From the NCBI GenBank assembly GCA_002694745.1, contig NZMY01000007.1, forward strand, positions 1 to 41,007: DNA of 41,007 nucleotides, given 5' to 3'. This DNA is from Croceicoccus sp. (GTDB lineage: Bacteria; Pseudomonadota; Alphaproteobacteria; Sphingomonadales; Sphingomonadaceae). Of the stretch, positions 4,680 to 40,594 are shown piece by piece; the first letter of the stretch is position 1; every line of letters starts with the position of its first letter. Made by a program: the position numbers and the translations under genes. Under the pieces are notes generated by a model. That model was not told the origin of the DNA and did no database searches. It was given only the letters and a program-made list of their open reading frames with translations.

Positions 4680-4717
4680 GGGGGCATCGCAGAATCTAGT
4701 CGTAAACGTACGCTAAG
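4680..4717 (+). repeat. Left 38-bp terminal inverted repeat (Tn3 type)
   Basis: The outer end begins GGGGGCATCGC and the inner end reads ACGCTAAG. Tn3-family repeats are typically 38 bp with a GGGG outer and TAAG inner end. It matches the complement of 40236-40273 except at repeat position 19 (A here, G on the right). It directly abuts the tpsB fragment. Confidence 0.92.
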
Positions 4718-5328
4718 CCCAAAAGGATAAGCGAACGGCAATTTGCGACGCGTCATCCGTTCCCTTTGAACGGTGGATTCTGGTGGAAGCTGCCGTTCCC
4801 ATTCTGGTCCAAGGCGCGGCTATAGCTTGTAGCGCGGCAAATTACGGTGGCCTGGCCATCGTAAATGTCGCCGCGCAATAGCTGCGGTCCGTGGAGCACG
4901 CCGCCGAGGCAGCAACGCGCCCATTCAAGTCGCTCAACCGAGATCATGGCAAACCAATGAGCAGACATTCTGCTTATGACCTGAGGTGGGACAATGCTGC
5001 CGTTCGACGTGCGCCGCTCAAACGGCAGGCTTCGCCGCAACCCGCCTTAGCTAGCGTGAGATGGGGCGGATGGGGGTCTGGGGCAAAAGGTTTCCGGCTC
5101 AGGTGTCAACACCGGGACAAAAAACGGGCCAGGCTGTCAAAACCGGTCGACAGTCGAGCACTGGCGCACTTCGGTGATTACCTCTGCGGTCGGGGATCCC
5201 CGCGTCCGAAGGCCTAGTCGCTAATCAGCGAGCCGCAGACACCGTTATTCCCGCTACATCATCTAGTGGCAGCTGTGCACCACAATGATGGCCGGCGGCC
5301 TCACCGACACGCTGGATCTGGCTTTGCT
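4718..5328. other. Left end of the passenger: no recognised gene
   Basis: About 600 bp between the left repeat and the end of the cob operon. A leftward open frame (4753-5040) reads HWFAMISVERLEWARCCLGG, then LHGPQLLRGDIYDGQATVICR; I do not recognise it and saw no ribosome site, so it is not called. The sequence has the look of decayed intergenic DNA from earlier joinings. No tRNA or att-like site was seen. Confidence 0.4.
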
Positions 5329-5373
5329 CCATACCACCTGCCCCCACGAGTTGCACAGTGGCAAGTGGTATGG
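5329..5373 (-). terminator. Hairpin at the end of the cob operon
   Basis: A 9-bp perfect inverted repeat (CCATACCAC / GTGGTATGG), extended inward by four further pairs after a bulge, begins 8 bases past the cobU stop codon. No T-run follows on the minus strand. Position at the end of a 21-kb operon makes a termination or mRNA-stability role plausible. Confidence 0.45.
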
Positions 5374-5381
5374 CTAGCCGC

Positions 5382-5909
5382 TCATCCTTTAGGTTTCAGC
5401 GTCAAGGGAAGGCCGGCGAACATTATGACTGCCTCTTCAACCAATGCCGCTATTTCCTGATTGATGCGGCCCGCAACATCGCGAAACCTTCTGGCAAGGG
5501 CGTTGTCGGGTACAATGCCCAGACCCACTTCGTTGGCGACCAGAATGACCGGCCCCCGTGCGGCTGAAAGCGAGCGCGTCAGTCCTTCCGTAGCGGCAGC
5601 CGTATCGCGTTCCGCCAGCATCAGGTTCGAAGCCCACAGCGTCAGGCAATCGACCAGCACCACCGTCTCGGGCGTGCTATATACCGTGATCGCCTCCGCC
5701 AGTTCCAGGGGGGCCTCGACGGTTGACCAGCGCGGCCCACGATCGGCACGGTGCAGGGCAATCCGCTCGCGCATCTCGTCATCGAAGGCCTGGGCTGAGG
5801 CCAGATAGATCAGTTCACCCGCCAGGGCCTCTGCCCTGCCTTGCGCATAGCGGCTCTTGCCCGAACGCGCGCCGCCCAGCACCAGCAAGTGGGACAAGGC
5901 GCTGCTCAT
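5382..5909 (-). CDS. cobU: Adenosylcobinamide kinase / adenosylcobinamide-phosphate guanylyltransferase (CobU, CobP)
   Basis: A 175-residue bifunctional cytoplasmic enzyme that phosphorylates adenosylcobinamide and then transfers GMP to give AdoCbi-GDP, the substrate of CobS. The Walker A motif GGARSGKS lies at residues 12-19. His53 (RIALHRADRGPRW) probably matches the guanylylated histidine of the Salmonella enzyme. VLVDCLTLWASNLM and VANEVGLGIVP are further family motifs. The length is normal. Its ATG overlaps the cobQ stop as ATGA. It is the last gene of the leftward operon. In P. denitrificans nomenclature this is cobP. Confidence 0.95.
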   Translation of the reverse strand: MSSALSHLLVLGGARSGKSRYAQGRAEALAGELIYLASAQAFDDEMRERIALHRADRGPRWSTVEAPLELAEAITVYSTPETVVLVDCLTLWASNLMLAERDTAAATEGLTRSLSAARGPVILVANEVGLGIVPDNALARRFRDVAGRINQEIAALVEEAVIMFAGLPLTLKPKG

Positions 5910-7393
5910 GCGCTATCTCCCGCCGGGACGGAAGCGGGTCTCTCCGCCATGGCCAGCGCCACCAGCGCGTCAATATCGAGATGCTCCTCAAGCGCGGCTG
6001 CGATCTCGTCCAGCGCCGCCTCGACAGAGGCGCCATAGTCCACGCCCCCGGCTTCTACATCCATGCGCGACAGCAGCGCCCGGCGCAGCTCCGCATCAGC
6101 CAGCAGGCCGTGGACATAGGAACCAAACACCGTGCCGCCCGCATTTATCGCGCCATCGCGGCGGCCATCGGCGAAAACGGCGAAGGGCTGTTCCGTATCC
6201 GGCCCGTTGGTTTGCCCCATGTGCATTTCATATCCCTGGAATGGCGCGCCCATCGCCAGCCCGCTGACCGGACGCAACGCCTTGTGCGCGTGCAAGGTCG
6301 TTTCAACATCAAGCAGGCCAAGGCCGCTGGCAGCGCTGGCCGAACCTTCAAACCCATCGGGATCGGCGATGCTTTTGCCGAGCATCTGGTAACCACCGCA
6401 AAGCCCAAGGATCAGCCCGCCGCGCCGGTGATGCGCAAAAATATCGATGTCCCAGCCCTCTGCACGCAGAGCGGCCAGATCGGCGATTGTCGACTTTGAC
6501 CCGGGCAGGATGATGAGTGCGGCCTCTGCCGGGATCGGCTGGCCGGGCGGAACCATGTGCAGGTCCACACCATGTTCGAGCTTCAGCGGATCGAGGTCAT
6601 CGAAATTAGATATGCGCGGCAGGATCGGACAGGCGATCAGCTTGCGGCTTTCAGCCCGCGCCTTGCCGCTCTCCAGCACCACGGCATCCTCGCTGGGGAG
6701 CCGCGCCGCCGCGCTCAACCATGGGACAACGCCGAAGCCGCGCCAGCCTGAGAGGCTTTCGATCTGGGCGTAGCCATCGGCGAACAGGGCGGGATCCCCC
6801 CGAAACTTGTTGATGATGAAACCCTGGATCATCGCCGTGTCGGCGGGGTCGATGATCGTTCTCGTGCCAACGATGGCGGCAATGACTCCGCCGCGATCAA
6901 TATCGCCGACCAGCACGACGGGCACGCCTGCCGCTCGCGCAAAGCCCATATTGGCGATGTCGCTAGCGCGCAGGTTGATTTCCGCAGGAGAGCCGGCACC
7001 CTCGACAACGACGATGTCGCACGCCCGGCGGAGCCGGTTATAGCTGGCCAGAACTTCGCCGAGCAGCGCGCCCCGTGCCTGCCGAAAATTGCCCGCGCCC
7101 AATGTGCCGCGCACCCGACCATGCACGATCAGTTGCGATGTGCGGTCGGCCTGCGGTTTCAGCAGCACCGGATTCATGTCGGTATGCGGCTCCACCTTGC
7201 AGGCGATTGCCTGCAAGGCCTGCGCCCGGCCGATCTCGCCGCCATCGCTGGTGACGGCAGCATTGTTCGACATGTTCTGCGGCTTGAACGGCAAGACCCG
7301 CAAACCCCGCTGCACCAGGGCGCGGCACAGCCCCGCCACCAGCACGGATTTGCCCACATCAGAGCCGGTGCCCTGAAGCATTATAGCGCCCAT
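5906..7393 (-). CDS. cobQ: Cobyric acid synthase CobQ
   Basis: A 495-residue amidotransferase that adds four amide groups (b, d, e, g) to adenosylcobyrinic acid a,c-diamide, using glutamine and ATP. The N-terminal dethiobiotin-synthetase-like domain opens with the P-loop GTGSDVGKS (residues 8-16). DIVVVEGAGSPAEINL and LVGDIDRGG follow. The C-terminal class I glutaminase domain shows LPGSKSTIADL, the nucleophile Cys in GLILGLCGGYQMLG and the catalytic His in SYVHGLL. The start at 7393 gives MGAIMLQGTGSD and overlaps the cbiB end by 13 bases; an ATG four codons later is possible. Upstream frame extension to 7471 overlaps cbiB and is not needed. Confidence 0.95.
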   Translation of the reverse strand: MGAIMLQGTGSDVGKSVLVAGLCRALVQRGLRVLPFKPQNMSNNAAVTSDGGEIGRAQALQAIACKVEPHTDMNPVLLKPQADRTSQLIVHGRVRGTLGAGNFRQARGALLGEVLASYNRLRRACDIVVVEGAGSPAEINLRASDIANMGFARAAGVPVVLVGDIDRGGVIAAIVGTRTIIDPADTAMIQGFIINKFRGDPALFADGYAQIESLSGWRGFGVVPWLSAAARLPSEDAVVLESGKARAESRKLIACPILPRISNFDDLDPLKLEHGVDLHMVPPGQPIPAEAALIILPGSKSTIADLAALRAEGWDIDIFAHHRRGGLILGLCGGYQMLGKSIADPDGFEGSASAASGLGLLDVETTLHAHKALRPVSGLAMGAPFQGYEMHMGQTNGPDTEQPFAVFADGRRDGAINAGGTVFGSYVHGLLADAELRRALLSRMDVEAGGVDYGASVEAALDEIAAALEEHLDIDALVALAMAERPASVPAGDSA

Positions 7394-8331
7394 GCTGCAC
7401 CTCCTGCAATACCGGCCGCCATGAACCACAGGCACAGACATGCACGGGCGTAGATGCCCAATCCGCGCCAAATATCCTCTGTCCGGGCCGGGCGGTCTCC
7501 CTCCCCAATCCAGAGCTTGTCCGAAAGAATCCCGTCATAAGCGATTGGCCCAGCCAGGCGCAGCCCCAGCGCCCCAGCCATCGCGGCCTCGGGCCAGCCC
7601 GCATTGGGCGAGGCGTGCCTGGACGCATCGCGCCACAATATCCGCCAGCCACCCCCGCCGCACAGGCAGATCAGCAATCCCGACAGGCGCGCTGGAATGA
7701 GGTTCATCGCATCGTCGGTGCGGGCCGCAGCCCAACCATAGGCGCGCCATCGCTCCTCGCGGTGCCCAATCATGCTGTCGGCGGTGTTGATCGCCTTATA
7801 GGCCCAGATACCGGGCAGCCCCAGCACCAGCAGCCAGAACAACGGCGCGACCACCCCGTCGCAGAAACTTTCCGCCAGACTCTCGATCGCCGCGCGGGCA
7901 ACACCCGCGTCATCAAGCGCGGCTGTATCGCGGCCAACGATCATGCCGACTGTGGCGCGCGCGGCGGGCAGATCCTGCCGCTCCAGCGCATCGGCAACGA
8001 GGCGGACGTGGTCGTACAGGCTGCGCTGCGCCAGACCCGGCCAGGCCAGCACAGCGATCAGGGGCCAGGCCCAAGGCCCGGCGATTGCCACGAGCAGACT
8101 TTGCAGCACCCAGCCCGCACCGCCCGCCATACCCAGCAGGATCAGGACGGTGACCGCCCCGGCCATGCGCCGCTGTCCATCGGAACGCGAGGGGACATTC
8201 CAGCGCCGTTCCAGCGCGGCGATAATCCGCGCAAAGATGCCCACAGGATGGCCGATCCGGCGATACAGCGGCTGAGGCCAGCCCACTGCCGCGTCGAGCA
8301 CCAAGGCCAGGAAAGCAGTCAGATCAATCAT
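7381..8331 (-). CDS. cbiB: Adenosylcobinamide-phosphate synthase CbiB (CobD)
   Basis: A 316-residue inner-membrane protein that joins (R)-1-aminopropan-2-ol phosphate to adenosylcobyric acid. Family motifs are GWPQPLYRRIGHPVG at the N terminus, RAAIESLAESFCDGVVAPLFW in the middle and YKAINTADSMIGHR. Hydrophobic segments at about residues 55-90 and 150-180 and at the C terminus fit its known membrane location. The start at 8331 (MIDLTAFLALVLD) is chosen over in-frame upstream codons because it overlaps the preceding gene by only 8 bases and matches the family N terminus. Confidence 0.93.
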   Translation of the reverse strand: MIDLTAFLALVLDAAVGWPQPLYRRIGHPVGIFARIIAALERRWNVPSRSDGQRRMAGAVTVLILLGMAGGAGWVLQSLLVAIAGPWAWPLIAVLAWPGLAQRSLYDHVRLVADALERQDLPAARATVGMIVGRDTAALDDAGVARAAIESLAESFCDGVVAPLFWLLVLGLPGIWAYKAINTADSMIGHREERWRAYGWAAARTDDAMNLIPARLSGLLICLCGGGGWRILWRDASRHASPNAGWPEAAMAGALGLRLAGPIAYDGILSDKLWIGEGDRPARTEDIWRGLGIYARACLCLWFMAAGIAGGAAWAL

Positions 8332-9307
8332 CAGCCAGCGCCGCATCAAGGCGATCCAGCGCCTGTCGGTCGGCGGGCAGGCCCAGGCGCAGCCAGCGCG
8401 GATCGTAATCGAACGGCCGCGTCAGGATGGAATGGCGCGCAAGGCGTTCGAACAGCGCGGCGGCATCGTCCGTTTCGATCAGCCGGAACAGCGGGCAAGC
8501 ACCTATCGCGCTGTAGCCCCGCCGCGCCAGCACCGCGTCCAGCGCATCCGCCTGTTCACGCAAGGCCATCCGCATGGCGGCTGTCCAGTCCACATCCTGA
8601 TATGCCGCTGTGCCGATGGCCAGCGCCGCTGCCGATAGCGGCCAACTGCCCAGCCGCTGCCGATATTGCGCGATCAGCGCGCGCGGTCCCAGCACAAAGC
8701 CGAGCCGCACCCCGGCCAGCCCGAAGAATTTGCCGAACGAGCGGAAGATAATCAGCCGCTGTCCGTCCTGCACATGGGCGGCAAGGCTGCTGTGCGGGGC
8801 GGCATCGGCAAAGGCTTCGTCCACGACCAGCCACGCTGCGCTGTCGCGCCGCGCCGCCAGCCAGCCAAGCAGGGTGGCAGGCGACATGATCCGGCCATCG
8901 GGGTTATTGGGATTGGCAAGGATGATGGTCGCCTCCTCCGTTCCGGTCAGCTCGGTCAGGGCTACGGGGCGGCTGCGGGGAATCATTTCGCCATGGGTGC
9001 GATAGCTGGGCTGGGCGTGGATGGCAGCGCCGGGCAGGATGTCACCCAGCATCCGCAGGCCGATCTCCGTGCCTGGTACGGCACAGACATGGGCTGGGTC
9101 AGTGCCGAAACAGGCGGCGGCAGCGGCCTCCAGATCGTTCAGCGCGCCGGTGTCGGGCAGCGCCTGCCAGTCCACTGCCAGATTGTCCGCGCCGGGCCAG
9201 CCATGCGGATTGATGCCGGTGGACAGGTCGATCCACGGCGCCTTGCCCATGCCGAACTGCGCCATGGCATCGGCCAACCTGCCGCCGTGAAAACTGAAGC
9301 TGTTCAT
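8324..9307 (-). CDS. cobC: Threonine-phosphate decarboxylase (alphaproteobacterial CobC)
   Basis: A 327-residue PLP enzyme of aminotransferase fold class I. It makes (R)-1-aminopropan-2-ol O-2-phosphate from L-threonine phosphate for CbiB. The motifs are IDLSTGINPHGWP near the N terminus, ILANPNNPDGR, VVDEAFAD and the PLP lysine in FRSFGKFFGLAGVRLG. The ATG at 9307 overlaps the cobS stop as ATGA, which fixes the start. The Salmonella counterpart is CobD; in P. denitrificans the gene is called cobC. No threonine kinase (PduX or BluE type) is present in the window to supply its substrate. Confidence 0.93.
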   Translation of the reverse strand: MNSFSFHGGRLADAMAQFGMGKAPWIDLSTGINPHGWPGADNLAVDWQALPDTGALNDLEAAAAACFGTDPAHVCAVPGTEIGLRMLGDILPGAAIHAQPSYRTHGEMIPRSRPVALTELTGTEEATIILANPNNPDGRIMSPATLLGWLAARRDSAAWLVVDEAFADAAPHSSLAAHVQDGQRLIIFRSFGKFFGLAGVRLGFVLGPRALIAQYRQRLGSWPLSAAALAIGTAAYQDVDWTAAMRMALREQADALDAVLARRGYSAIGACPLFRLIETDDAAALFERLARHSILTRPFDYDPRWLRLGLPADRQALDRLDAALADD

Positions 9308-10044
9308 GTCGTGTGTATCCATAGGCCCGTGATTGCCACGCTCAGCAGCAAGCCGGTTTCGATCAACTCGATGCCTGCACCATGGCCATCGCCGGAAATC
9401 CCGCCCAACGCGCGGCGCACGTGCCACCCCCACCACAGAACGAGTAATGGTGTGACAAGCAGCGCCGGAGTGAACCACGCCGCCGCTGCCAGCGCGGCCG
9501 CCCAGCCCGCAAGATCGATCGGGCCGATGGCGGAACGGAATCGAGCCGCCAGCCCCTGATGCAGCGGCATCAGCCACCATGTCCACACCAGCGGGCCGAT
9601 GCGCGCGGCAAACGGCACCAGTACCAGCGCGCCAAACGCCCGTGCATCCACCAGCATATCCAGCAGCACCAACTTGCTCAGCAGTTGGAGCACAATCGCG
9701 ACAACGCCGAAGCTGCCGACATGGGGATCGGCCAGAACGGCCAGCAGCCGCTCGCGATCTTTATGCGCCGCGCCGCTGGCATCGGCGAGGTCGGCCAGGC
9801 CATCAAGGTGCAGCGCGCCGGTCACGCCCACCCAGACGATCAGTGCGGCTAATGCGCCCAGCCGGTGATCGACCAGCGCGCCTGCCCATGCGGCTCCCGC
9901 AACCGCTGCACCAATAACCAGGCCTACAGCGGGAAACCAGCGCATCGACCGGGCAAACGCGGCATCATCCACGACGATTGTCCGCAGTGGAGCTGGCATA
10001 GGCAGCCGCGTCAGGAATTGCAGGGCGATGATGAAGCCCCTCAC
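9304..10044 (-). CDS. cobS: Adenosylcobinamide-GDP ribazoletransferase CobS (CobV)
   Basis: A 246-residue polytopic membrane enzyme joining AdoCbi-GDP and alpha-ribazole (or its phosphate), the final assembly of the nucleotide loop. The CDP-alcohol-transferase-like motif reads GALHLDGLADLADASGA, and the RLP at LQFLTRLPMP is typical of the N terminus. About five to six hydrophobic segments can be counted. The start is a GTG at 10044 that overlaps the phosphatase stop as GTGA and gives VRGFIIALQFLTRLP, the normal family beginning. It should not be confused with the chelatase subunit also named CobS, which is absent here. Confidence 0.93.
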   Translation of the reverse strand: MRGFIIALQFLTRLPMPAPLRTIVVDDAAFARSMRWFPAVGLVIGAAVAGAAWAGALVDHRLGALAALIVWVGVTGALHLDGLADLADASGAAHKDRERLLAVLADPHVGSFGVVAIVLQLLSKLVLLDMLVDARAFGALVLVPFAARIGPLVWTWWLMPLHQGLAARFRSAIGPIDLAGWAAALAAAAWFTPALLVTPLLVLWWGWHVRRALGGISGDGHGAGIELIETGLLLSVAITGLWIHTT

Positions 10045-10610
10045 GGATAAAGCCCCGCGATCTGTGCCGTGGGGGTTGCTCCGGGCCAGACGCGCAACGT
10101 CAGCAGGCAATTGTAGGGCAGGTCAACGGCCCACGTCTGGTGCATGTCAAACCCGCACAACACCGCCAGCGCCGCCCGCATCGCGCCTCCATGCGTGACG
10201 ATCAGCGTCGGCCGCGCGGCCAGATCGCCAAGGGCGCTGGATACTCGTTCCACCAGCGCCGACCAGCGTTCTCCACCGGGCGGCGCATGGCCATCGGGAT
10301 CGTCCCAGAACCGCGCCAGTGCCGCGCCTTCTACATCGCCGGGAGCCATCCCGTCCCATGCGCCAAAGTCCAGTTCGCGCCAGCGCGGATCGATTGACAG
10401 CGGCACACCGGTCGCAAGGGCAATGGCCTCGCCCGCCAAACGCGCCCGCGACAGGTCGGAAGCGATCAGCACTTCAGCCGCCAGATTCCGCGCCTGATCG
10501 GCGCAGGCCGCGATACCGGCGGCAATAGGCGGCGCATCGGTAAGACCAATCAGCCGCCCCGCGCCTTCCGGTTCACCGTGGCGCAGGAGATAAAGGGGAA
10601 AGCTGCTCAC
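10041..10610 (-). CDS. Histidine phosphatase family, probable alpha-ribazole phosphatase
   Basis: A 189-residue phosphoglycerate-mutase-like phosphatase. The catalytic RHGEPEG box is at residues 10-16, the second histidine is in LIVTHGGAMRA and the acid residue is in ELDFGAWDGM. In the Salmonella pathway the same family (CobC) removes phosphate from alpha-ribazole phosphate or adenosylcobalamin phosphate; the position between cobT and cobS supports that role. The start is a GTG overlapping the cobT stop as GTGA. I leave the symbol empty because cobC is used here for the decarboxylase. The substrate is inferred from context. Confidence 0.88.
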   Translation of the reverse strand: MSSFPLYLLRHGEPEGAGRLIGLTDAPPIAAGIAACADQARNLAAEVLIASDLSRARLAGEAIALATGVPLSIDPRWRELDFGAWDGMAPGDVEGAALARFWDDPDGHAPPGGERWSALVERVSSALGDLAARPTLIVTHGGAMRAALAVLCGFDMHQTWAVDLPYNCLLTLRVWPGATPTAQIAGLYP

Positions 10611-11623
10611 AGGCCGTCTGCCACCCCGGCCTGCGCAAAAGTGGCCATGCCGTTGTGCGTGGCCAGCGCTGCCCGGATTACCGACACGGCCAGCGCCGCG
10701 CCGCTGCCTTCGCCCAATCGCATCCCCAGCGACAGCAGGGGATCAAGGCCCAGATGCTCCAGCAAGCGGATATGCCCCGGTTCAGCCGAACAATGGCCCG
10801 CCAGACAATGATCGGTGATCGCCGGAACGGCGGCGGCCAGCGGCGCCAGTGCGGCGCAACTGATGAACCCGTCCAGCACCACCGGGATGCGCAGACGGCG
10901 CGCCTCCAGCACGGCCCCGGCAACGCCTGCGATTTCGCGCCCGCCCAACCGGCGCAGGATTTCAAACGGGGTGTCCGGCGCATCGGCATGAAAGGCCAGC
11001 GCCCGCTCTACCACGGCTACCTTGCGCGCAATTCCGCCCGCATCAACGCCCGTTCCCGGCCCGGCCCATTGCGCGGGACTGCCGCCATAACTGCGCGCGC
11101 AAAGCGCGGCGGCGGCGGTTGAATTGCCAATGCCCATTTCGCCAACGACCAGCAGGTGCAGCCCCGGCTCCACCACCGCCGCTCCGGCAGCAAGTGCAGC
11201 AAGGCACTCCGTCTCGTCCATTGCCGCAGCGATGGTGAAGTCCGCCGTGGGCCGGTCCAGATCGAGTGCGATGACCCGCAGATCAAGTCCGGCGGCCCCG
11301 GCCAGTGCGTTGATGGCGGCACCTCCGGCAGCGAAATTGCCGACCATCGCGGCAGTCACGCTGGCGGGAAAGGCGCTGACCCCGTGGACAACGAAGCCAT
11401 GATTCCCGGCAATGATCGCCGCGCGGCCCTGTTCGATCACCGGCTGCGCCGTGCCCTGCCATCCGGCCATAAACACCGCGATGTCTTCCAGTCGCCCCAG
11501 CGATCCGGCGGGCTTGGTCAGGCTGGCCTGCCGCGCCCGCGCAGCGGTGATGGCGTCCGCATCGGCCACAGGCAAACGCTCAAGCGCCGCTTCAAAGGCG
11601 GCAAGGGACGCAAACCGGCTCAT
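10607..11623 (-). CDS. cobT: Nicotinate-nucleotide:dimethylbenzimidazole phosphoribosyltransferase (CobT; CobU of P. denitrificans)
   Basis: A 338-residue cytoplasmic enzyme activating dimethylbenzimidazole to alpha-ribazole 5'-phosphate. The motifs are LTKPAGSLGRLEDIA (residues about 34-48), IIAGNHGFVVHGVSAFP, LLVVGEMGIGNSTAAAAL and the catalytic Glu region near LGMRLGEGSGAALA. The length is close to the usual 340-350. The ATG at 11623 overlaps the DUF1636 stop as ATGA. It uses the product of BluB, encoded two genes upstream, so base synthesis and activation are adjacent. Confidence 0.95.
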   Translation of the reverse strand: MSRFASLAAFEAALERLPVADADAITAARARQASLTKPAGSLGRLEDIAVFMAGWQGTAQPVIEQGRAAIIAGNHGFVVHGVSAFPASVTAAMVGNFAAGGAAINALAGAAGLDLRVIALDLDRPTADFTIAAAMDETECLAALAAGAAVVEPGLHLLVVGEMGIGNSTAAAALCARSYGGSPAQWAGPGTGVDAGGIARKVAVVERALAFHADAPDTPFEILRRLGGREIAGVAGAVLEARRLRIPVVLDGFISCAALAPLAAAVPAITDHCLAGHCSAEPGHIRLLEHLGLDPLLSLGMRLGEGSGAALAVSVIRAALATHNGMATFAQAGVADGL

Positions 11624-12027: not shown

Positions 12028-12052
12028 GGTTTTCTGGTCCTTTGATTGAAAA

Positions 12053-26207: not shown

Positions 26208-26283
26208 TCGGCGCGCGACGACGGGCGGGCGCGACAAAGCACCCGTAACCACGCAACCCGTGCAGCCCCAGCCACACAGCTTC

Positions 26284-26545: not shown

Positions 26546-26647
26546 CGCGATCATTGAAGGGCGGGTTACCCCGATCCTTCACCGCGCGCTCTAGACGAAA
26601 ATGCCAGCCAAGCCAATTGATGATGTTGCTTCACGCAACGTGGACGG

Positions 26648-29812: not shown

Positions 29813-29936
29813 TAAATAGTCCCCCGGCGTCTTGCGACGTGGCCGGGGCAAACCCGCGCGAACGGGCGACACGCGCGGCGGCCGGACGCCATGGGCGGCC
29901 GACGCACGTCTCCGATGCGGCCCCAGCCGCTCGTTC

Positions 29937-32404: not shown

Positions 32405-34177
32405 TTATTTGGCGAGAGCAGCGCCCGTAACCTCGATTCCGGCGCCCGGTTGTCCTGACGGCACGGTGAAGCCAAACGTAGCACCGATTTCCTGTGCAAC
32501 GGGGCCAAAGAAGCGAGCTGAAATCGTCCCCCAGTTGGTCCCGTTTTTTGTTAGATCTGCTGTCACCGGATAGCCGTTTATGATAGTAGTGGCGAAGTTG
32601 AGAGTGCCGAAATTCTGTGTGTTCGAACCAGATTGGCCTTGAATGTTCAGTGCGCCACTCAATGATGCGGCGGAAAAGTTCGCGTCGAAACGGGACGTTC
32701 CGGTGACCTTGTAAACCGCATTTCCGGCAGCATCTATGCCTGTGCCGTAAGCAACGCCAGAATAGCTTGCGGTTCCTTTTCGCGCATAAACGATTCCTGT
32801 ATCGGTTGGAATACCATAGACCGTGTAGATATTGTAACGATTGGCCGCATTAAGTATTTCAAGAAGTTCGTTAAAATGAGCGAAGCTCGTGTATGTGAAA
32901 ACCAATTCGCTGCTAGAACTACTTGGTTTGTAAAAGTCTGCGGTAACTGTGAAGCCGTCTACGGACTTGCGGTAGGTGACGAAATAGGGCGCACTAGGCG
33001 CAATCTTGTCGGATGCCGCGATCGACCCATTAGCCATGTCTGAGCGAGGGCCAGAAAAGGAGATTGAACCGTCAGTCCGGATTGTCAGCTGTCCATTGCC
33101 TGATCCGATTTGGGAATTCTGACCACTGTTGACCAGTTCAACCCAATGGTTCGACGTGTAAAAAAGTTCGTCTACCACAAAATTCGTCAGCGCCAGATTT
33201 GCAGAAATTGGGCCATTTGACTTTGTACCAATTAGGCCCCCGGTCGCCGAGCTCCCGTCCACACCTGCTGTAGTGAATGTCGCTCCCACCTCATTTGCTG
33301 TCGGGCCGTAAAAACGACCATCGACTGAACCCTGAGACCGGCTATTTGATCCGCCGTAAGCTGCAAAACCGGAAAATGTGCCATCACCCGCCGAAAGTCT
33401 TCCAGCGAGGACCACATTAATACCGCCGCCCGAAGCACCTGCGCCAGATACCAGCTCCCTTTCGGTGACCGGCGTGACGGAATTGAAGGCACCAGTGAGA
33501 AAATCTACGTTGAAATTGCCGGTGCCAGAGAATGAACGCGGCTGAGTCCCAGGTTTGGTCGTGACACCAAATACGTCGGTAAGGAATGCTGCCGTTCCCA
33601 CACGGGGAATGGCGGGAGATGCGGTCTCAATTCCGTAGGTGAACATGTCCAGTGTGGTATCCTGGACGTTTCCGCTGACTCTGTTGCGCTGCCACAGGCC
33701 CCGGCCCACATAGCGAGGCCCGGTCCCGCCAAAGCTAGGTGCCCAAAGAGTCAGGAAATCACGACCGGCGGTCTCAGTTTTCGAGAATACAGCTTGTCCT
33801 TGCTCGCTAGAAGTGATGTCCGATGGGCTAAAGGTTTGGCTGCGTCCGCCCGTGCTTATGGTATAGGTGCCCCCCGTCGCATCATAAGTGATCGACAGCG
33901 GTGCGCTGGCCGAACTGCCGGAGTTGGTATTCGAGCTGCTCAAATCGAATTGCGCGGTTTGCGTTGCTGCAATGTTTGTGAATGACTGAGTTGCTGTCAG
34001 AGGTTCAAGAGACACATTGGTTGGCGTTGGCGTTGGCGTTGGCGTTGGCGTTGGCGCGGGAGTGGGAGGGGGCGCAGGGACCGGCGTGCTGTTAACGCCG
34101 CCGCCGCATGCCGAGAGCATGAACGCCAGAGTCATGGCGGATGTCGTTGCCTTTATGGCGTTTTGATTGGTCTGCAC
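32405..34177 (-). CDS. Surface lipoprotein with TbpB-like beta-barrel domains (Slam substrate)
   Basis: A 590-residue lipoprotein. The signal peptide ends in the lipobox LSAC (FMLSACGGG), followed by a proline-threonine linker (PTPTPTPTPT) encoded by six exact copies of a hexamer (34021-34056). The body holds two TbpB-type barrel signatures, GRFYGPTANEVGATF (near residue 300) and ARFFGPVAQEIGATFGF (near the C terminus), each introduced by glycine-rich strands. Such proteins bind host or environmental ligands (iron, haem or metal proteins in known cases) on the cell surface and are flipped out by Slam, encoded 12 bases upstream. The ligand is unknown; cobalt or corrinoid capture is only a thought from the neighbourhood. 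Confidence 0.82.
   Translation of the reverse strand: MQTNQNAIKATTSAMTLAFMLSACGGGVNSTPVPAPPPTPAPTPTPTPTPTPTNVSLEPLTATQSFTNIAATQTAQFDLSSSNTNSGSSASAPLSITYDATGGTYTISTGGRSQTFSPSDITSSEQGQAVFSKTETAGRDFLTLWAPSFGGTGPRYVGRGLWQRNRVSGNVQDTTLDMFTYGIETASPAIPRVGTAAFLTDVFGVTTKPGTQPRSFSGTGNFNVDFLTGAFNSVTPVTERELVSGAGASGGGINVVLAGRLSAGDGTFSGFAAYGGSNSRSQGSVDGRFYGPTANEVGATFTTAGVDGSSATGGLIGTKSNGPISANLALTNFVVDELFYTSNHWVELVNSGQNSQIGSGNGQLTIRTDGSISFSGPRSDMANGSIAASDKIAPSAPYFVTYRKSVDGFTVTADFYKPSSSSSELVFTYTSFAHFNELLEILNAANRYNIYTVYGIPTDTGIVYARKGTASYSGVAYGTGIDAAGNAVYKVTGTSRFDANFSAASLSGALNIQGQSGSNTQNFGTLNFATTIINGYPVTADLTKNGTNWGTISARFFGPVAQEIGATFGFTVPSGQPGAGIEVTGAALAK
34021..34056 (-). repeat. Hexanucleotide tandem repeat (6 copies) in the lipoprotein gene
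   Basis: Six perfect TTGGCG units (CGCCAA on the coding strand) encode Pro-Thr repeats in the linker behind the lipid anchor. Changes in copy number keep the frame and would only change linker length. Confidence 0.9.
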
Positions 34178-34189
34178 TGATTTTCCCTG

Positions 34190-35559
34190 TCAAAATGCTG
34201 AAGTCACGCCGAATTCGGCGGCGCGGCGACTGAAATCGTAGATGCCCACGGCGGAGCGGTTGCGTTCAGCGCGAACGCGCGCGTAGGGCGCCAGACCCTT
34301 CCATTGGATGGCGCGGAAGGTTGCTCCAAGGCCGATGCTGAAACGGTCATCGACGCGCTTCGCCGGATAGAGGAACAGCCGCGCGTCAGCGGTCAAGCGC
34401 GAATAGCTGCCGTCGAGCACCAGCGTGGTCCGGCCCCATTCCTTGAAAAAAAACCTGACGTGCCGCGTGTCCAATCGGACCAGCCCGGATCTCTCGCCGC
34501 CGTCCGGCTTACGCGGATTTGCAGTCCGCCACCAAAGCTGGCACTGAATGCTCGGTCAACGGCAACGGTCCCGGCGTAAACGGTCGAATCTTGAAGATTG
34601 TTGCGCAGGTTTTTCAGCCGGGAGAATGCGCCCTCATTCCTGATCTGGGTGCGTTTGCCGAGTGGGTGCTGGAAGACGGCCGATCCGCCCCAGCCGCGCG
34701 AAAGCGGTTCCTGCCCGTACCAGCGCCATGATGGCCCCGCCGACAGCGTTAGCCTGTCAGCCCCGGAAACAAGTTCCGGCCCGACCTGAAAAGCCAGAGC
34801 ATAATCGTCAAATTCATGAGCGCGGTAGAAATCACCGCTGCCCGAAACACGCGCCAGCAAGCGCGCCTTGACGCCCAAGGGCAGACGCGCATAGGCTTGG
34901 ACTCGTGTGGCAACACCAAGCCCCGACTTTGCCCGCGCATCATCGCTCAACGTGAAATCGCCCAAGACGGTGCCGAGCGTGTCAGACCGTGTGGCGCGGT
35001 TGACATTGCTGTCTGGCGCAATTGCAACTTCAAGGCTTCCTCCCAACGGCTTAGCCGCTGCCAAAGCCGAAGCGTAGAAACGGACAGCGCGTTCGACGTC
35101 CGGCGGAAGCTGGCCACCGGCCTGCACTGCCCGGAACTCTCGTTCTGCTGCCCCGAAGCGGCCAAGCACCGTGTTCATGCGCGCAAGTTCGAGACGAACG
35201 CGAGGCGCATTGGGCTTTTCATCGAGGATGCGGCGCAGTTCGACAGCAGCGTCACGCGGGCGGGCCATCCTATCGGCGAGCATCATCGCCAGACGAAAGC
35301 GCGCCTCGGTCCGCAATTCTATATCAGGATTGGTGGCCAACGCCCGATAAGCAATTTCGGCCGTGGCGAAATCGCCCGCATCGCGCGCGTTGTCAGCAAC
35401 ACCGAACAGTTGGGTGGGCGTCACCTGAACGGAAGTGATCGGAGTACTAGTTGATGATTCGGGAATGACTTCCCTGCGGTGCAGGTCGCTAGCCTTCGCC
35501 GACGCGTTCATGGCCAAGCCTGTGGCTGACAAGCTAGCCAAGTATAAATATAGTTCCAC
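34190..35559 (-). pseudogene. Slam-type outer-membrane exporter (TPR plus DUF560 barrel), out of frame
   Basis: Slam proteins move surface lipoproteins across the outer membrane. The first frame (35559 to 34393) has a signal-peptide-like N terminus, TPR-like helices at residues about 45-150 (AEIAYRALATNPDIELRTEARFRLAMML, AAVELRRILDEKPNAPRVRLELARM) and barrel strands (VQAYARLPLGVKARLLARVSG). At a run of eight T (34453 to 34446, coding strand) the frame is lost. The rest of the barrel, WGRTTLVLDGSYSRL to the family ending YARVRAERNRSAVGIYDF and AAEFGVTSAF, continues in another frame to 34190. One more T or two fewer restores it. It may be a sequencing error, a true mutation or a phase switch. 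The start (GTG at 35559) is uncertain. Confidence 0.82.
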
Positions 35560-35664
35560 ATGCTGTGTTTAAGCAGCGTGCGGCGACAGCACAATATCTT
35601 TGGCGTGAGTTTCTAACATTGTACCGATTTACTTGCAGCTCTGGCAGAGCCACGCAAAAGTTTC
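35560..35664. other. Slam upstream region
   Basis: A short AT-richer stretch that should hold the promoter of the leftward Slam and lipoprotein genes. No clear -35/-10 pair was found. Confidence 0.3.
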
Positions 35665-35721
35665 CTAATTCCGATGGCCAGGCTCGGTAGAACGCCTCAG
35701 CATCAAATTGCCAGAATGCCG

Positions 35722-35883
35722 TACGTTCTCATGACTGCTGTCGATCCCGCGTTCGAACAGCAAATCCTCGACATTCTGCAGCGACAGCGGAAACCGCACA
35801 TACATCATCACCACGAGGGGGACTACCTCCGGCGAAGAGTTTAAACAGCGGAACGGGCTGGCTGGCTTGCGAGGACGGGGCAT
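35722..35883 (-). pseudogene. IS6-family transposase N-terminal remnant
   Basis: The first 50 or so residues match IS6/IS26-family transposases: MPRPRKPASPFRCLNSSPEV, then VMMYVRFPLSLQNVEDLLFERGIDSSHENVR. In the family this is followed by WWNRFGP and the DDE core; here the match stops after HENVR and the rest is missing. IS6 elements make cointegrates, so this scar may mark a past joining step in building the passenger region. Confidence 0.75.
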
Positions 35884-36490
35884 CTCACTGCCCTGCCTCG
35901 GCCCACCTTACCAAGTGGTACATTTGCCCCGACAATGCCATCTAAACGGCAACTGCGCCCTTGTGGCGAACGCCCCGATGGGTACTCAGGACATTACCCT
36001 TACGATCAAGTTCGATTGCTCGATCTTCATTGGCACCGCCACCATCAGGGCACGCGGCGCTTTCCCGATCAAAGGCGCCAAGACCGGCCGAAGGGGTTTC
36101 GCAGCTCCAGTTATGCCCACCGCCGACGCTCTGTAGCACTTGCTTGTGTATCTAGAAACGGTCGTTTGTCGAACGCTATTGGGCTGCCAGAACGGGCAGC
36201 GCGCGTCAGCAATTAAGGCTTGCCCTATGAACAGCGTAGTTCGGCGCACTGCTGCCAGACAGCTTGGCTAAAAAGGGAATGGCGAGTTTCGGCACGAGCG
36301 GCCATTCACATGTCGGTTGAGCAACGACTTGGATTGGTCGGCTGCCGACTTCGCACGAGCGTCAGCTATCTCCGCGAGCTCGCTCCGATCCGGACATTCG
36401 CTTAACGGCCCGGCACCGTCATAAACCGGGGGCGAGGGAACGGCGGGTTTCAGGGAATCCGCCCCGTGTCGCGAATGTCCGCAAGGGGGC
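35884..36490. other. Gap between IS6 remnant and resolvase gene
   Basis: About 600 bp in which I recognise no gene. Several short frames exist on both strands but none has a ribosome site with a familiar product. The last 250 bases look like decayed coding DNA. No second copy of the 38-bp repeat was found here. Confidence 0.35.
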
Positions 36491-36513
36491 GACAGCTGCT
36501 TAACGGAGCTGTC
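36491..36513 (-). terminator. Hairpin spanning the resolvase stop codon
   Basis: GACAGCT and AGCTGTC form a perfect 7-bp inverted repeat with a 9-base loop that contains the tnpR stop codon (36500-36502). No T-run follows. Possible mRNA-end structure. Confidence 0.3.
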
Positions 36514-37132
36514 GTCCACGATCGAAAAGGCGCTGGCCGTCTGGACGCAATGCTCCGGTCGGATCCACGAAGCGGTAGAGAGTCTGGCGTGTCACGCCCA
36601 TTTCCGCGCAAAGATCGGCGACCACGGTTTCGGGCTTGCCCATAGCGGCCTGAGCAAGGCGTAGCTTTGCCAAGGTCATCTTGAATGGCCGGCCGCCTTT
36701 TCTACCCCGTGCCCGCGCGGCGGCTAACCCCGCCTTGGTGCGTTCGACGATGAGTTCGCGCTCGAACTCGGCGAGGCCGGCGAAGATCGCGAAGATCAGC
36801 CGGCCATTGGCGGTGGTGGTGTCGATCGACGCCCCTTCACCCGCCAGCACCTTGAGCCCAATACCGCGCTTGGTCAGGTCGCCAACCGTGTTGACGAGGT
36901 GGCGCAGATCGCGGCCGAGCCGGTCGAGCTTCCAGATCACGAGCGTGTCGTCGCGGCGCAGCGCCTTCAAGCACGCGTCCAACCCCGGTCGCTTGTCGAG
37001 CCGACCCGACGCGGCATCCTCATAGATATGTTCGGGATCGACGCCGGCCGCGATCAGGGCGTCGCGCTGGAGGTCATGGACCTGGCTGCCGTCCGCCTTG
37101 GACACCCGCGCGTAACCAATCTGAGTTGTCAC
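36500..37132 (-). CDS. tnpR: Serine resolvase TnpR
   Basis: A 210-residue serine recombinase that resolves the cointegrates formed by Tn3-type transposition. The catalytic Ser is in IGYARVSKADG (S11). The active-site arginines lie in KLDRLGRDLRHLVN. The long helix E region reads RLIFAIFAGLAEFERELIVERTKAGLAAARARGRKGGRP, and a C-terminal helix-turn-helix reads VADLCAEMGVTRQTLYRFV. The start is a GTG at 37132. It is divergent from tnpA, with 138 bp between them. It is slightly longer than classic TnpR (about 185 residues). Confidence 0.93.
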   Translation of the reverse strand: MTTQIGYARVSKADGSQVHDLQRDALIAAGVDPEHIYEDAASGRLDKRPGLDACLKALRRDDTLVIWKLDRLGRDLRHLVNTVGDLTKRGIGLKVLAGEGASIDTTTANGRLIFAIFAGLAEFERELIVERTKAGLAAARARGRKGGRPFKMTLAKLRLAQAAMGKPETVVADLCAEMGVTRQTLYRFVDPTGALRPDGQRLFDRGRQLR

Positions 37133-37250
37133 ATATACGTCCGTTTATGGAGCGCAGCAGCCGACTGCCTGCTGCCATAGCCGAGGATGTCACATAATCC
37201 GTCATGCTGTCTATGATCGATAAACGGTGTTCAATATGAATAAGTGACAC
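37127..37250. promoter_or_regulatory. Candidate res site between tnpR and tnpA
   Basis: The divergent gap holds two direct copies of TGTCACATA (37127 and 37188, each followed within a few bases by CGTC) and an inverted copy of TGTCAC at 37244-37249. It also holds a CCGTTTAT/ATAAACGG pair (37141-37148 and 37220-37227) and a perfect 7-bp dyad GCAGCAG/CTGCTGC (37154-37175). Tn3 res sites have three resolvase-bound subsites and overlap both promoters; subsite limits here are not proven. Confidence 0.5.
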
Positions 37251-37270
37251 CTCGAAATCGGGAAGCGCAT

Positions 37271-40240
37271 ATGGCGGGCAAAACGATCCTCACCCCCGGT
37301 CAGCGAGACGCCCTGTTCGATCCGCCGACGGAACCCGACATCGTCGAGCGGCTCTACACACTCGGCAGCAACGAACTCGCAGAAATTTTCCGCAGACGTC
37401 GCCCTGCCAACCGGATCGGTTTTGCCGTCCAGCTTTGCTACCTGCGCGCGCCAGGCCGCCCCCTGCGTGCCGATGAAATTCCGCCGATGCCGATGTTGGT
37501 GTTGCTCGCCGAACAGCTTGCATGCGCCGTCAGCGATTTTGCCCTCTACGCTGATCGGCTGCCGACGCTGCGGGAACACCGCGCCCAAGCCGAAGCTTGG
37601 CTGGGCATGCGCCCTTTCATGACTGCGGATCGGCGTGCCCTTTTCGACATCGCAGTTGAAGTGGCGACTTCAACCGATCGGGGTGGGGCAATTGTCGCAG
37701 CGATGGTCCAAGCCCTTCGGGACAACAATGTGACATTGCCCGCCAGTGACACGTTCGAACGTATCGCGTTGGTTGCGCGCGCACGTGCGCGAAAATCTGC
37801 GTATGCCGGAATCGTCAGCGAGCTGTCCGCCGAACAAAGCCACAATCTGGTACGACTGCTGGCAACAGACCCTGCCCTCGGTCGGACCACGCTGGCATGG
37901 CTGCGTGAATATCCAGAAGCACCCAGCGCCAGCAATCTCGCCGCTGTAATCGAAAGACTGAGCGTCGTGCGCGGGTTGGTCATCGACCCGGCCCGCGCGC
38001 GCACCATTCACGCCAATCGCTACGCCGTCATGTCTCGCGAGGCGGCGATCATGAGCGCGCAGCACCTCTCCAGGCTGGACGAGGTACGACGTACTGCCAC
38101 GCTCTGCGCGTTCGTCATTGAAATGGAAGTGACGTTGACCGACGCCGCCGTATTCATGATGGAAAAGATGGTTGGATCGCTATTCCGCCGCGCGGAACGG
38201 TCCCGTTCTGCACGACTGGTCGAAGAAGCGGGTCGCCTGAAGGAAATCGGCAAAATTTACGCGGCGCTCGGGCGGCTGCTGATCGAAGGGCGCTGGAAGC
38301 AGGAGGATCCCAGGGACGCGATCGAACGGGAAATTGGCTGGCCGAATATCGAGCGAAGCGTTGAGGAAACCGAGCTTCTTACCCGTGGAAGCGAGCATGG
38401 ACTGACGGATGTGCTGGAACGGTATCCCATGGTGCGGCGATTTGCCCCGCAGTTTTTAGCGGCATTCACTTTCAAGGCGGCAAAGTCGAACGATCCCGTT
38501 CTGGCGGCGGTGGCGGCCCTCATCGAATTGTATCGATCGAACCGGCGCATTCTCCCGCCCGTGGTGCCGCTTGGTTTTCTGCGAGTGCGCTGGCGCAAGC
38601 TTGTCCTCGATGATGGGAAGGTGGACCGCCGTGCATACGAGATCGCGGTCATTGTGCATTTGCGGGAACGACTGGGGTCGGGCGCGATCTGGGTTGAAGG
38701 CAGCAGGGCCTATCGAACTCTGGCCGACTATCTGTTGCCCAAGCCCACTTTCGAAACCATGCTGCTCGAGCAAAGAGTTCCCGTCGCCATCGACACCTCG
38801 TTCCCTGCCTGGCTCGACGATCGGCGCGAGAGGCTCGCTGCCCGGATGGCAGAGGTCAACTCGAAGGCACTGAAGGGCGAATTGCCTGATGTGATCCTTG
38901 ACGACGGCGGTCTCAAGATTTCTCCGCTCCGTAACGCGGTCCCTGATGAGGCCGAGAACCTAAAGGCACAGCTATACGGCCTGCTTCCCCGCATACGCAT
39001 CACCGATTTGCTGGCCGAAGTGGGCGTATGGACAGGGTTTGCCGATTGTTTCACGCACGTACGAAACGGGGCACCGTCCCACGATGGGCAAGCGCTGATG
39101 GCCGCCATTTTGGCCGATGCCACCAATCTGGGACTGGGCCGCATGGCGGAAAGCTCTCAAGGGTTGACCCACGCACGCCTGATATGGACCGCACAATGGC
39201 ACATCCGTGACGAGACCTATTCCGCAGCCCTGGCAGCCATCGTCGATCATCATCACGCGTTACCCCATTCGGCAATTTGGGGGCCGGGAACGGGATCATC
39301 GTCCGATGGGCAGTTTTATCGAGCGGGCGCCAAAGGTGAGGGCCGCGCGGATTATAATGCCAAATACGGCTCGGAGTCCGGCGTGCTTTTCTACACGCAC
39401 GTGTCGGATCGCTACGCCCCGTTCTACAACAAAGTCATCGCCGCCAACGCCGGCGAGGCCGCCCATGTGATCGACGGGCTGCTCAATCATGAGAGCCAAC
39501 TGGAGATCCAGGAGCATGCCACCGACACTGCCGGCGCGGTCGATCATGTGTTCGCCTTGTGCCATTTGCTTGGTTTCCGGTTTGCTCCGCGCATTCGCGA
39601 TCTCAGCGAGAGGCGGCTCTACACGCTTGCCCAGGGCACCGAATTTGCCGCCCTCGATCAATTGATCGGGGGTGCCGTCAACGTGAAAGCCATCGAGGAT
39701 GACTGGGCAGAGGTGCTGCACCTCGCTGCATCGATCCGCACTGGCACAGTCAGCGCCTCCGTCATGCTCAAGAAGCTGGCGGGCTATTCGCGTCAGAACT
39801 CGCTGTCGCGGGCGCTGCGGGAGATTGGTCGGGTTGAAAGATCGTTGTTCATGCTGGATTGGCTCGATGACATTGACCTACGTCGCCGCACCAACGCCAA
39901 TCTCAACAAGGGCGAGGCCCGCAACGCTTTGGCCCGCGCTGTATTTTTCAACCGGCTTGGCGAGCTGCGGGATCGGACATTTGAGAACCAGCGCCACCGG
40001 GCGTCGGGCCTCAACCTCGTGTCGGCCGCGATAATCCTCTGGAATACCGTTTATCTCGGGCGGGCGGCCGATTATCTGCGCCAGCAAGGCCGTGTCATTG
40101 AGGATGAGCTATTGAGCCATGCCGCGCCACTGGGCTGGGAGCACATCAGTCTTACCGGCGATTATCTCTGGAGCGACATGGAATTGCCCGAGGATGGATA
40201 TCGCCCACTGCGCACGCAAAACAGCCGGTCAGGCGCTTAG
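37271..40240 (+). CDS. tnpA: Tn3-family transposase TnpA
   Basis: A full-length 989-residue Tn3-type DDE transposase. The N-terminal DUF4158 region starts MAGKTILTPGQRDALFDPP. The C-terminal catalytic domain shows the first Asp in AAILADATNLGLGRMAE, the second in EHATDTAGAVDHVFALCHLLGFRF and the Glu in NANLNKGEARNALARAVFFNRLGELRDRT, with SSSDGQFYRAG and FYTHVSDRYAPFYNKVIAAN between. All key motifs are intact. The start at 37271 has GGGAAG upstream and is preferred over an in-frame GTG at 37244. The stop codon lies inside the right inverted repeat, as is common in this family. It should drive replicative transposition. Confidence 0.96.
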   Translation: MAGKTILTPGQRDALFDPPTEPDIVERLYTLGSNELAEIFRRRRPANRIGFAVQLCYLRAPGRPLRADEIPPMPMLVLLAEQLACAVSDFALYADRLPTLREHRAQAEAWLGMRPFMTADRRALFDIAVEVATSTDRGGAIVAAMVQALRDNNVTLPASDTFERIALVARARARKSAYAGIVSELSAEQSHNLVRLLATDPALGRTTLAWLREYPEAPSASNLAAVIERLSVVRGLVIDPARARTIHANRYAVMSREAAIMSAQHLSRLDEVRRTATLCAFVIEMEVTLTDAAVFMMEKMVGSLFRRAERSRSARLVEEAGRLKEIGKIYAALGRLLIEGRWKQEDPRDAIEREIGWPNIERSVEETELLTRGSEHGLTDVLERYPMVRRFAPQFLAAFTFKAAKSNDPVLAAVAALIELYRSNRRILPPVVPLGFLRVRWRKLVLDDGKVDRRAYEIAVIVHLRERLGSGAIWVEGSRAYRTLADYLLPKPTFETMLLEQRVPVAIDTSFPAWLDDRRERLAARMAEVNSKALKGELPDVILDDGGLKISPLRNAVPDEAENLKAQLYGLLPRIRITDLLAEVGVWTGFADCFTHVRNGAPSHDGQALMAAILADATNLGLGRMAESSQGLTHARLIWTAQWHIRDETYSAALAAIVDHHHALPHSAIWGPGTGSSSDGQFYRAGAKGEGRADYNAKYGSESGVLFYTHVSDRYAPFYNKVIAANAGEAAHVIDGLLNHESQLEIQEHATDTAGAVDHVFALCHLLGFRFAPRIRDLSERRLYTLAQGTEFAALDQLIGGAVNVKAIEDDWAEVLHLAASIRTGTVSASVMLKKLAGYSRQNSLSRALREIGRVERSLFMLDWLDDIDLRRRTNANLNKGEARNALARAVFFNRLGELRDRTFENQRHRASGLNLVSAAIILWNTVYLGRAADYLRQQGRVIEDELLSHAAPLGWEHISLTGDYLWSDMELPEDGYRPLRTQNSRSGA

Positions 40241-40594
40241 CGTACGTTTACGACCAGATTCTGCGATGCCCCCAGCTATCCCCTTGCTGCCACTCACGTG
40301 AAATACCAGGGCGCCAGGGCAGAGGCTCCCGACTTCGCTGACCGCTTGCACTATCTCCGGGATCGCGTCGTCGGAAACCGCGATTGCAATGACGTCACAA
40401 CCGGCGACGATTTTGGCGAGAGAACAGACTATCCTGGCATGGTCGGCCTCTTCGACCAATTCGCGACACTTCGCGAGCGTGCGACCCCATACCATTATTG
40501 GCGCCACGGATTGGTAGATCAGGCCAAGTGTCAGCGCCAGCGCGACCCTTCCGGTTCCGATAATCCCGATTTGCTTGAAATGCGGTGAGCTCAT
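40229..40594 (-). pseudogene. DUF2520-like Rossmann-fold protein, 3' part lost to the transposon
   Basis: The native part runs from the ATG at 40594 to 40274, about 107 residues: an NAD(P)-binding Rossmann start KQIGIIGTGRVALALTLGL, then VWGRTLAKCRELVEEADHARI and DVIAIAVSDDAIPEIVQAV, ending HVSGSKGIA. This matches the N-terminal domain of DUF2520 / 2-dehydropantoate-reductase-like proteins. The frame then runs through the inverted repeat for some 14 foreign residues to a stop at 40229. The C-terminal domain is absent. It is not related to the tpsB fragment at the left end. Confidence 0.75.
40236..40273 (-). repeat. Right 38-bp terminal inverted repeat (Tn3 type)
   Basis: It reads CTTAGCGT inward and GATGCCCCC outward on the plus strand, and is the complement of 4680-4717 at 37 of 38 positions. 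The tnpA stop codon is within it. The outer edge cuts the DUF2520-like gene. Confidence 0.93.

Follow-up and report, generated by a model that had tools for sequence, protein, structure and literature searches.

We analyzed a 41,007-bp stretch of DNA from Croceicoccus sp. (GCA_002694745.1, contig NZMY01000007.1), hereafter the window, which is one whole contig (C29) of a draft genome with 59 contigs. It contains a Tn3-family transposon that carries a cluster of cob genes for the synthesis of vitamin B12. Within the transposon, these genes are part of a smaller unit of 25,448 bp (positions 4987–30434), with 24 open genes and two cobalamin riboswitches (Table 1). Copies of this inner unit were found at other sites, in several genera of sphingomonads. 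A B12 transposon thus exists, but the sequence comparison attributes the wider spread of the cluster to the inner unit and not to the Tn3.

The transposon is delimited by two 38-bp terminal inverted repeats with one mismatch, which enclose 35.6 kb and have GGGGG at their outer and TAAG at their inner ends. Repeats of the Tn3 family have GGGG outer and TAAG inner ends. The pair is the strongest of the 13 inverted-repeat pairs listed for the window (40 nt at 98% including one outer base per side), the runner-up having 32 nt at 75%. The transposase (998 aa) matches the NCBIfam model transpos_Tn3 with 1048.5 bits, for a cut-off of 500, and its Pfam DDE_Tnp_Tn3 domain is complete (1–389 of 389). 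The 3' end of its gene overlaps the right repeat, a serine resolvase gene adjoins it in divergent orientation, and both proteins appear intact judged by their models. The preliminary description of this DNA had proposed these repeats and an intact tnpA running into the right one with tnpR beside it, and the inverted-repeat listing and the NCBIfam and Pfam models confirm it. The left repeat does pair with the right one and does not belong to an unrelated element.

The limits of the genes in the unit were carried over from an annotated copy at 99.9% identity and checked for open frames, and their identities were taken from Pfam and other models. The 24 genes are open, without internal stops, and span the aerobic pathway, from precorrin-2 up to the assembly of the nucleotide loop, together with bluB, a NicO transporter, and a TonB-dependent receptor. 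The riboswitches and cobalt uptake genes announced in the preliminary description are there, as two RF00174 riboswitches and the NicO transporter. Its wording of a nearly complete aerobic B12 pathway is fair as far as these genes go, but CobS and CobT (cobaltochelatase subunits) and CobA were not found among the genes of the cob block. CobT is present elsewhere, above the cut-off, in all 21 genomes searched, carriers and non-carriers alike, and in one of 14 control genomes (Caulobacter only). From this gene content, we infer that a host receiving the unit would gain de novo synthesis of adenosylcobalamin, using its own CobT. CobT is also kept in species of the genus lacking this CobN, i.e., as a lone chelatase subunit in probable B12 non-makers. 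The DUF1636 gene occupies the same place in two other annotated clusters, those of Sphingopyxis sp. 113P3 and Sphingomonas paeninsulae.

Table 1. Features of the Tn3-family element and of the inner cob unit (positions in the window; bits are model scores)
Feature	Positions	Strand	Remarks
TTGAT, left copy of the 5-bp target duplication	4675–4679		right copy is bases 100–104 of contig C16
Left 38-bp terminal inverted repeat, Tn3-family element	4680–4717	+	
Tn3 DNA left of the inner cob unit	4718–4986		first of its last 7 bases is the C invariant among the 7 left junctions
Inner cob unit	4987–30434		fixed ends TGGGACAATG.. and ..AGTGGTCG; G+C ~66%, against 59% in the rest of the element
cobU/P	5382–5909	-	Pfam
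cobQ	5906–7393	-	Pfam
cbiB/cobD	7381–8331	-	Pfam
Threonine-phosphate decarboxylase	8324–9307	-	Pfam
cobV	9304–10044	-	Pfam
Histidine phosphatase	10041–10610	-	Pfam
DMB (5,6-dimethylbenzimidazole) phosphoribosyltransferase	10607–11623	-	Pfam
DUF1636 gene	11620–12027	-	Pfam
bluB	12053–12682	-	Pfam
cobO	12715–13341	-	Pfam
cobF	13331–14095	-	
cobB	14092–15426	-	
cobM	15423–16208	-	
cobE-like	16205–16585	-	
cobL	16582–17790	-	
cobK, precorrin-6A reductase	17789–18550	+	331.9 bits, cut-off 231
cobJ	18514–19287	-	
cobI	19299–20036	-	
cobH	20033–20662	-	
cobG	20662–21807	-	
cobN	21804–25088	-	
cobW	25099–26151	-	
Cobalamin riboswitch upstream of cobW	26334–26561	-	RF00174, 99.4 bits
NicO-type nickel/cobalt transporter	26648–27694	-	
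TonB-dependent receptor under cobalamin riboswitch	27776–29704	-	B12-receptor model 23.7 bits, cut-off 599.7
Cobalamin riboswitch upstream of the receptor gene	29986–30219	-	RF00174, 97.6 bits
Other Tn3 passenger region, common to PW4	30435–36499		
Histidine kinase, Tn3 passenger	30648–31787	+	
Surface-lipoprotein-like gene, Tn3 passenger	32405–34177	-	
Slam-like TPR protein, Tn3 passenger	34393–35559	-	
tnpR, serine resolvase	36500–37132	-	
tnpR-tnpA intergenic, 111 bp	37133–37243		where a res site would be expected; sequence read by eye
tnpA, Tn3-family transposase, 998 aa	37244–40240	+	
Right 38-bp terminal inverted repeat	40236–40273	-	

The Tn3-family element has transposed. Its flanks within the window contig read TTGAT (left) and AGCTA (right) and show no duplication. 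The genome assembly has, at three mismatches or fewer, three copies of the repeat: the two of C29 and a third at positions 61–99 of another contig, C16. This contig starts with the last 99 bp of the element, identical, followed by TTGAT. Hence, a 5-bp duplication flanks the element on both sides across the two contigs. On its left side, the element adjoins the end of a ShlB/FhaC-type transporter gene (34.8 bits with the Pfam model, cut-off 22.7). By eye, the frame of this gene fits a frame that stops at the repeat in C16, along some 35 codons, which gives modest support. The right flank in the window resembles a Rossmann-fold gene cut by the right repeat; a search of 13 other entries of the genus with this flank yielded a single partial match (76%). 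The presence of two right ends and one left end may be caused by two copies that were partly collapsed, by a partial second copy, or by a wrong join. It is quite possible, if somewhat less than evenly so, that the 734 bp after the right repeat of the window were misplaced during assembly and that the true neighbour is C16. The overlap with C16 is exactly 99 bp, like an assembly-graph overlap, the alternative join restores the duplication, and the assembly has one left end for two right ends. However, the right flank also resembles a gene cut by a repeat, as a real second insertion would give. This doubt touches the copy number and not the existence of the Tn3 element. C16 also harbors, at 10922–15854 (L019) and about 10 kb from the second right end, a second and different Tn3-type element of about 4.9 kb, with related end repeats and a tnpA-tnpR region 68% identical to that of the window.

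Among nine other records with the cob unit that were compared in detail, one has the window-type Tn3 around it. This is the metagenome-assembled genome (MAG) Croceicoccus sp. PW4 (JAPYSD01), where window positions 4713–34731 are found on one contig and 34718–40240 on another, at 99.6–100% identity. PW4 belongs to the same genus, its rpoB and CobN places coinciding with those of an entry listed there, and its rpoB is 95.9% identical to that of the window genome (2,701 bp compared). A third contig holds the outer portion of a left-type repeat, beside a flank unlike the left flank of the window, so that the element has a different left neighbour in PW4; whether the repeats occur at different loci was among the checks advised in the preliminary description. 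The PW4 copy differs from that of the window in that one and the same foreign sequence interrupts both repeats close to the inner end (L134 1–52, the last 49 bp of L123, and L136 from 1054), which we take to resemble an IS110/IS1111-type insertion into Tn3 repeats. It also has an 839-bp insertion in the kinase gene (L030 3641–4479), with a CTAG duplication and frames that look by eye like an IS5-type transposase, and it comes from a fragmented MAG (810 contigs, 97% complete, 9% contaminated).

One of the closest known systems, a Tn3-family unit transposon on plasmid pRW412b of Sphingopyxis granuli (NZ_CP063841.1), has terminal repeats identical to the right repeat of the window, a tnpR-tnpA region 76% identical over 97% of the query, and a 5-bp duplication (TGATT); unlike the window element, it is about 5.0 kb long and has no B12 genes. 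The Tn3 repeat (at most three mismatches) was found in four of 396 genomes of the order, i.e., that of the window and three others, none of which was shown to have cob cargo. In one of these three (G178), the 95 bp beside the repeat are 84% identical to the end of the window tnpA. The tnpA region gave matches of about 64–73%, or short ones, in the nine entries searched besides PW4 (113P3 being searched in its plasmid only), and the right-hand passengers of the Tn3 were covered to at most 13% among the matches listed in a plasmid search. Exact searches of viral contigs with the inner part of the Tn3 repeat and with the left end of the unit gave no matches.

To this we added the distribution of the inner unit. 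A scan of genome contigs for CobN identified 123 relatives; 80 loci were kept, of which 22 were compared with the window as DNA, supplemented by one plasmid search. Among the copies with 99.9% identity, blastn homology stops at most three bases from the same two points, and the base-by-base common stretch is the unit as delimited above. Both ends are present in Novosphingobium sp. B1, Sphingobium sp. CECT 9361, and a Sphingomonas MAG (all 99.9%), as well as in the copy of S. cupriresistens (~96–98%). The plasmid of Sphingopyxis sp. 113P3 has the same left end, whereas on the right an IS3-type element truncates its copy at 30381. In Sphingobium D43FB and Ant17 (~90%, one and the same site) the right end is present and the left one lies on a separate contig, and in BiD32 (~89–95%) the right end has one extra G and the left is truncated at 5068. 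The window, 113P3, CECT 9361, the Sphingomonas MAG, B1, S. cupriresistens, and D43FB/Ant17 have the same left end; all of these except 113P3, together with BiD32, have the same right end. Apart from PW4, the carriers compared in detail (113P3, the Sphingomonas MAG, B1, CECT 9361, S. cupriresistens, Ant17, D43FB, and BiD32; eight of nine) lack the window-type Tn3, and in four of these records the unit is 99.9% identical over 18.6–25.4 kb. No two unit sites share adjoining sequence, although some flanks hold related genes further out. The block therefore lies at different places, and not at one place in relatives without the repeats, the outcome that the preliminary description had named as refuting its reading.

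The plasmid of 113P3 (NZ_CP009453.1) carries the unit at 99.92% over 25,395 bp. Unlike the window, it has a different Tn3-family transposase (~43% in translated comparison) about 8 kb to the right, and a lone match resembling the Tn3 repeat (91–95%) about 118 kb from the cob unit. The plasmid of Sphingomonas paeninsulae (NZ_CP032828.1) has a cob cluster with the same gene order from cobU to nicO at 84% DNA identity, but its homology ends at 5378 and 30277, so that both unit ends are missing, and the genes that separate the transporter from the right-hand riboswitch region are not the same. Among plasmids, 113P3 is the only record with the right end and the only one with the full left end; the other 40 of 41 records found with the left end match through an internal IS3-like stretch, of about 66–84 bp among the 39 listed.

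The copies diverged little. Counted over 18,575 shared positions, differences from the window number 6 in PW4, 13 in 113P3, 15 in both B1 and CECT 9361, and 17 in the Sphingomonas MAG; between the window and 113P3 there are 21 over 25,395 bp. B1 and CECT 9361 show no difference over the 18,575 bp, while their rpoB genes are 81.0% identical. The rpoB of the window genome is 81–84% identical to that of six carriers measured outside its genus (113P3 not among them). These comparisons were made as nucleotide identities only, and an rpoB protein tree was discarded because the longest-frame rule had picked wrong frames in many of its rows. Within the genus of the window, this CobN was found in two of the 14 species searched, those of the window and of PW4. 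Another member (G406) has only a distant CobN relative, and PW4 has such a relative in addition. Six sites unite the window and PW4 against the other four copies, which is in keeping with a single capture of the unit by the Tn3.

These data bear on two other accounts of the spread. One is that the Tn3 is the only mobile element and that the unit was copied out of such elements. The Tn3 is indeed intact, mobile, and common to PW4 and the window. Yet, the eight carriers without it, the six sites shared by the window and PW4 against all other copies, and the fact that these two are further from the rest than B1, CECT 9361, and the Sphingomonas MAG are among themselves make this account highly improbable. 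The preliminary description saw in the Tn3 a route for spreading B12 synthesis: a mobile Tn3 carrying the cob cluster was found, and its role as vehicle of the wider spread was not supported. The other account is that the shared ends are the limits of an ancestral segment spread by homologous recombination or by larger plasmids. Several copies adjoin plasmid-type genes, and large plasmids could move the block between hosts, but the lack of shared adjoining sequence means that neither plasmid transfer alone nor homologous recombination in the flanks explains the identical end points. We consider it very unlikely. An insertion sequence (IS)-flanked composite transposon was also discarded for the inner unit, the flanks of the eight sites having no common flanking element.

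We then compared the junctions between the unit and its surroundings. Among 40 flank columns on each side, there is one invariant column each, a C at -7 on the left (seven of seven sites) and a G at +7 on the right (seven of seven). A complementary invariant pair at equal distance was obtained in none of 20,000 shuffles. If we leave out BiD32, whose end needed a one-base shift, the right G is found in six of six sites, the pair occurs in one of 100,000 shuffles, and an extra invariant column appears at +33. Among the sites testable on both sides, only one of six has a 5-bp direct repeat. The symmetric C-N6-[unit]-N6-G arrangement and the scarcity of duplications suggest integration by a tyrosine recombinase. 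A 6-bp exchange region is described for SEs and Tn554 (PMC10214605), and one of 6–7 nt for GInts (PMC5385486). The spacing of the cob junctions could reflect such a region, as in the SE, GInt, RIT, and Tn554 elements, and GInt cargo units are of similar size. These elements differ from the cob unit in that they encode the tyrosine recombinases that move them; moreover, the terminal inverted repeats of SEs and the direct att repeats of GInts are not seen in the cob unit. Two other types of ends were rejected. Integron cassettes insert at a GTT core, and there is no such core at the junctions (the attC model was not run). Hairpins at the unit ends are not above shuffles (z of -0.08 and -0.18, the stretches being set one base outside the unit on one side).

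The same junctions speak to a further possibility, that a DDE transposon (Tn7- or Tn5053-like) carried the unit as cargo, its transposase genes having been lost or acting in trans and its 5-bp duplications having mostly been erased by later rearrangement. In its favour are a set of TniQ, TniB, and Mu-type transposase genes to the left of the unit in 113P3 and the one site with a duplication. But five of six testable sites have none, the symmetric C and G at distance 7 are not expected, an integrase gene separates the unit from the Tni genes in 113P3, and translated comparison of the flanks taken from the other sites gave no Tni-like similarity. This origin seems unlikely.

We propose instead an explanation in two layers. 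The inner layer is the cob unit, which has fixed ends and would have integrated at unrelated sites in several sphingomonad genera. It could move as a circle or as a copied intermediate, and a tyrosine recombinase acting in trans would join it to C-N6-G targets through a 6-bp exchange region, which would leave no ordinary target duplication. In the outer layer, one copy of the unit lies in a Tn3-family transposon with kinase and surface-lipoprotein passengers. This composite of 35.6 kb would have moved in the way usual for Tn3 elements, producing a 5-bp duplication, and is now in two species of one genus. We regard the two-layer architecture as very likely and the explanation as a whole as probable. 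Recombination in trans, which is argued by analogy with known elements, has nearly an even chance of being the mechanism. More tentatively, the cob unit may represent a recombinase-free, non-autonomous element of 25 kb with fixed ends that is devoted to one entire biosynthetic pathway, moved in trans into C-N6-G accessory hot spots, with capture by a Tn3 as a second means of transport.

Several observations weigh against this explanation. There is no recombinase gene among the 24 unit genes (cob, transport, and regulatory-type), which is why help in trans has to be assumed, and no helper was found: the integrase beside the 113P3 copy has relatives (45–72%) in only four of the eight other carriers searched. 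We rejected it as the common helper, as it is not in all carriers and has no common motif behind it. The two ends of the unit are not visibly inverted repeats of each other, by end comparison and by eye. The CECT 9361 copy is bordered by AAAGC at either end, the kind of repeat expected from a DDE transposon. The copies of B1 and the Sphingomonas MAG have a slight resemblance in the first bases of their right flanks. The PW4 and Sphingomonas records are MAGs, and the left end of D43FB/Ant17 is apparently linked to its unit via an insertion at 5099–5101, which is our own reading. Finally, an empty site was not found. Four plasmid stretches of about 7 kb have the left flank of B1, none its right one. 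The right flank of S. cupriresistens and the left flank of CECT 9361 match plasmid backbones (two stretches each) in which the other flank is absent, and a plasmid search with the left flank of the Sphingomonas MAG gave only short matches.

When B12 synthesis is patchily distributed, loss or some unspecified horizontal transfer is the usual explanation. In the present case, what was transferred can be specified base by base, as one unit with two fixed ends and 0–21 differences between copies from different genera, and the gain of a pathway of about 20 genes becomes directly testable. The package omits CobT, which all 21 relatives searched carry elsewhere, and this hints at why it may work on arrival. 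The nested Tn3 is an example of a unit acquiring a second vehicle, and the two together would provide a concrete route for the spread of B12 synthesis. Among the matches listed from the open-licence literature, covered in part through titles and the beginnings of abstracts, we found neither a B12 transposon nor a mobile cob unit in sphingomonads, in line with the preliminary description, for which such transposons were not an established class.

Some neighbouring genes deserve mention. Among the right-hand passengers of the Tn3, the surface-lipoprotein-like protein reaches 58.8 bits with the slam_lipo model (below the cut-off of 80) and the Slam-like TPR protein 26.8 bits (below 35.2). This pair (32405–35559) is a possible type 11 secretion system (T11SS) pair travelling with the B12 genes; T11SS cargo and possible links to cobalamin are treated in PMC12282271. 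To the left of the Tn3 element, the window has an IS3-type transposase gene with integrase core domains (113–1219) and a tyrosine-recombinase-like gene (2591–3313), and part of the 113–3313 stretch recurs in other contigs of the same genome.

Genes of several kinds adjoin the cob unit at its landing sites. Integrase genes end 34 bp (Sphingomonas MAG) and 42 bp (113P3) from its left end, the end of a GajB-like helicase gene is next to the CECT 9361 copy and a relative of this gene is found across the unit in D43FB, on the opposite side, the S. cupriresistens copy has a RES/Xre toxin-antitoxin-like pair next to it, and a strawberry-notch gene adjoins that of Novosphingobium B1. Related plasmids hold other accessory genes at the places of B1, S. 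cupriresistens, and CECT 9361. The plasmids of Blastomonas RAC04 (L199 4112) and Sphingopyxis macrogoltabida (L200 4102) share the strawberry-notch gene of B1 and, at the insertion point, match 13 and 11 of the first 16 bases of the unit (by eye). Searched elsewhere, the RAC04 start was found in the query record only, and that of S. macrogoltabida also in one more record of the same species. The cargo behind these unit-like starts differs from cob, with copper genes in RAC04, a hint from sequence that they may be siblings of the cob unit.

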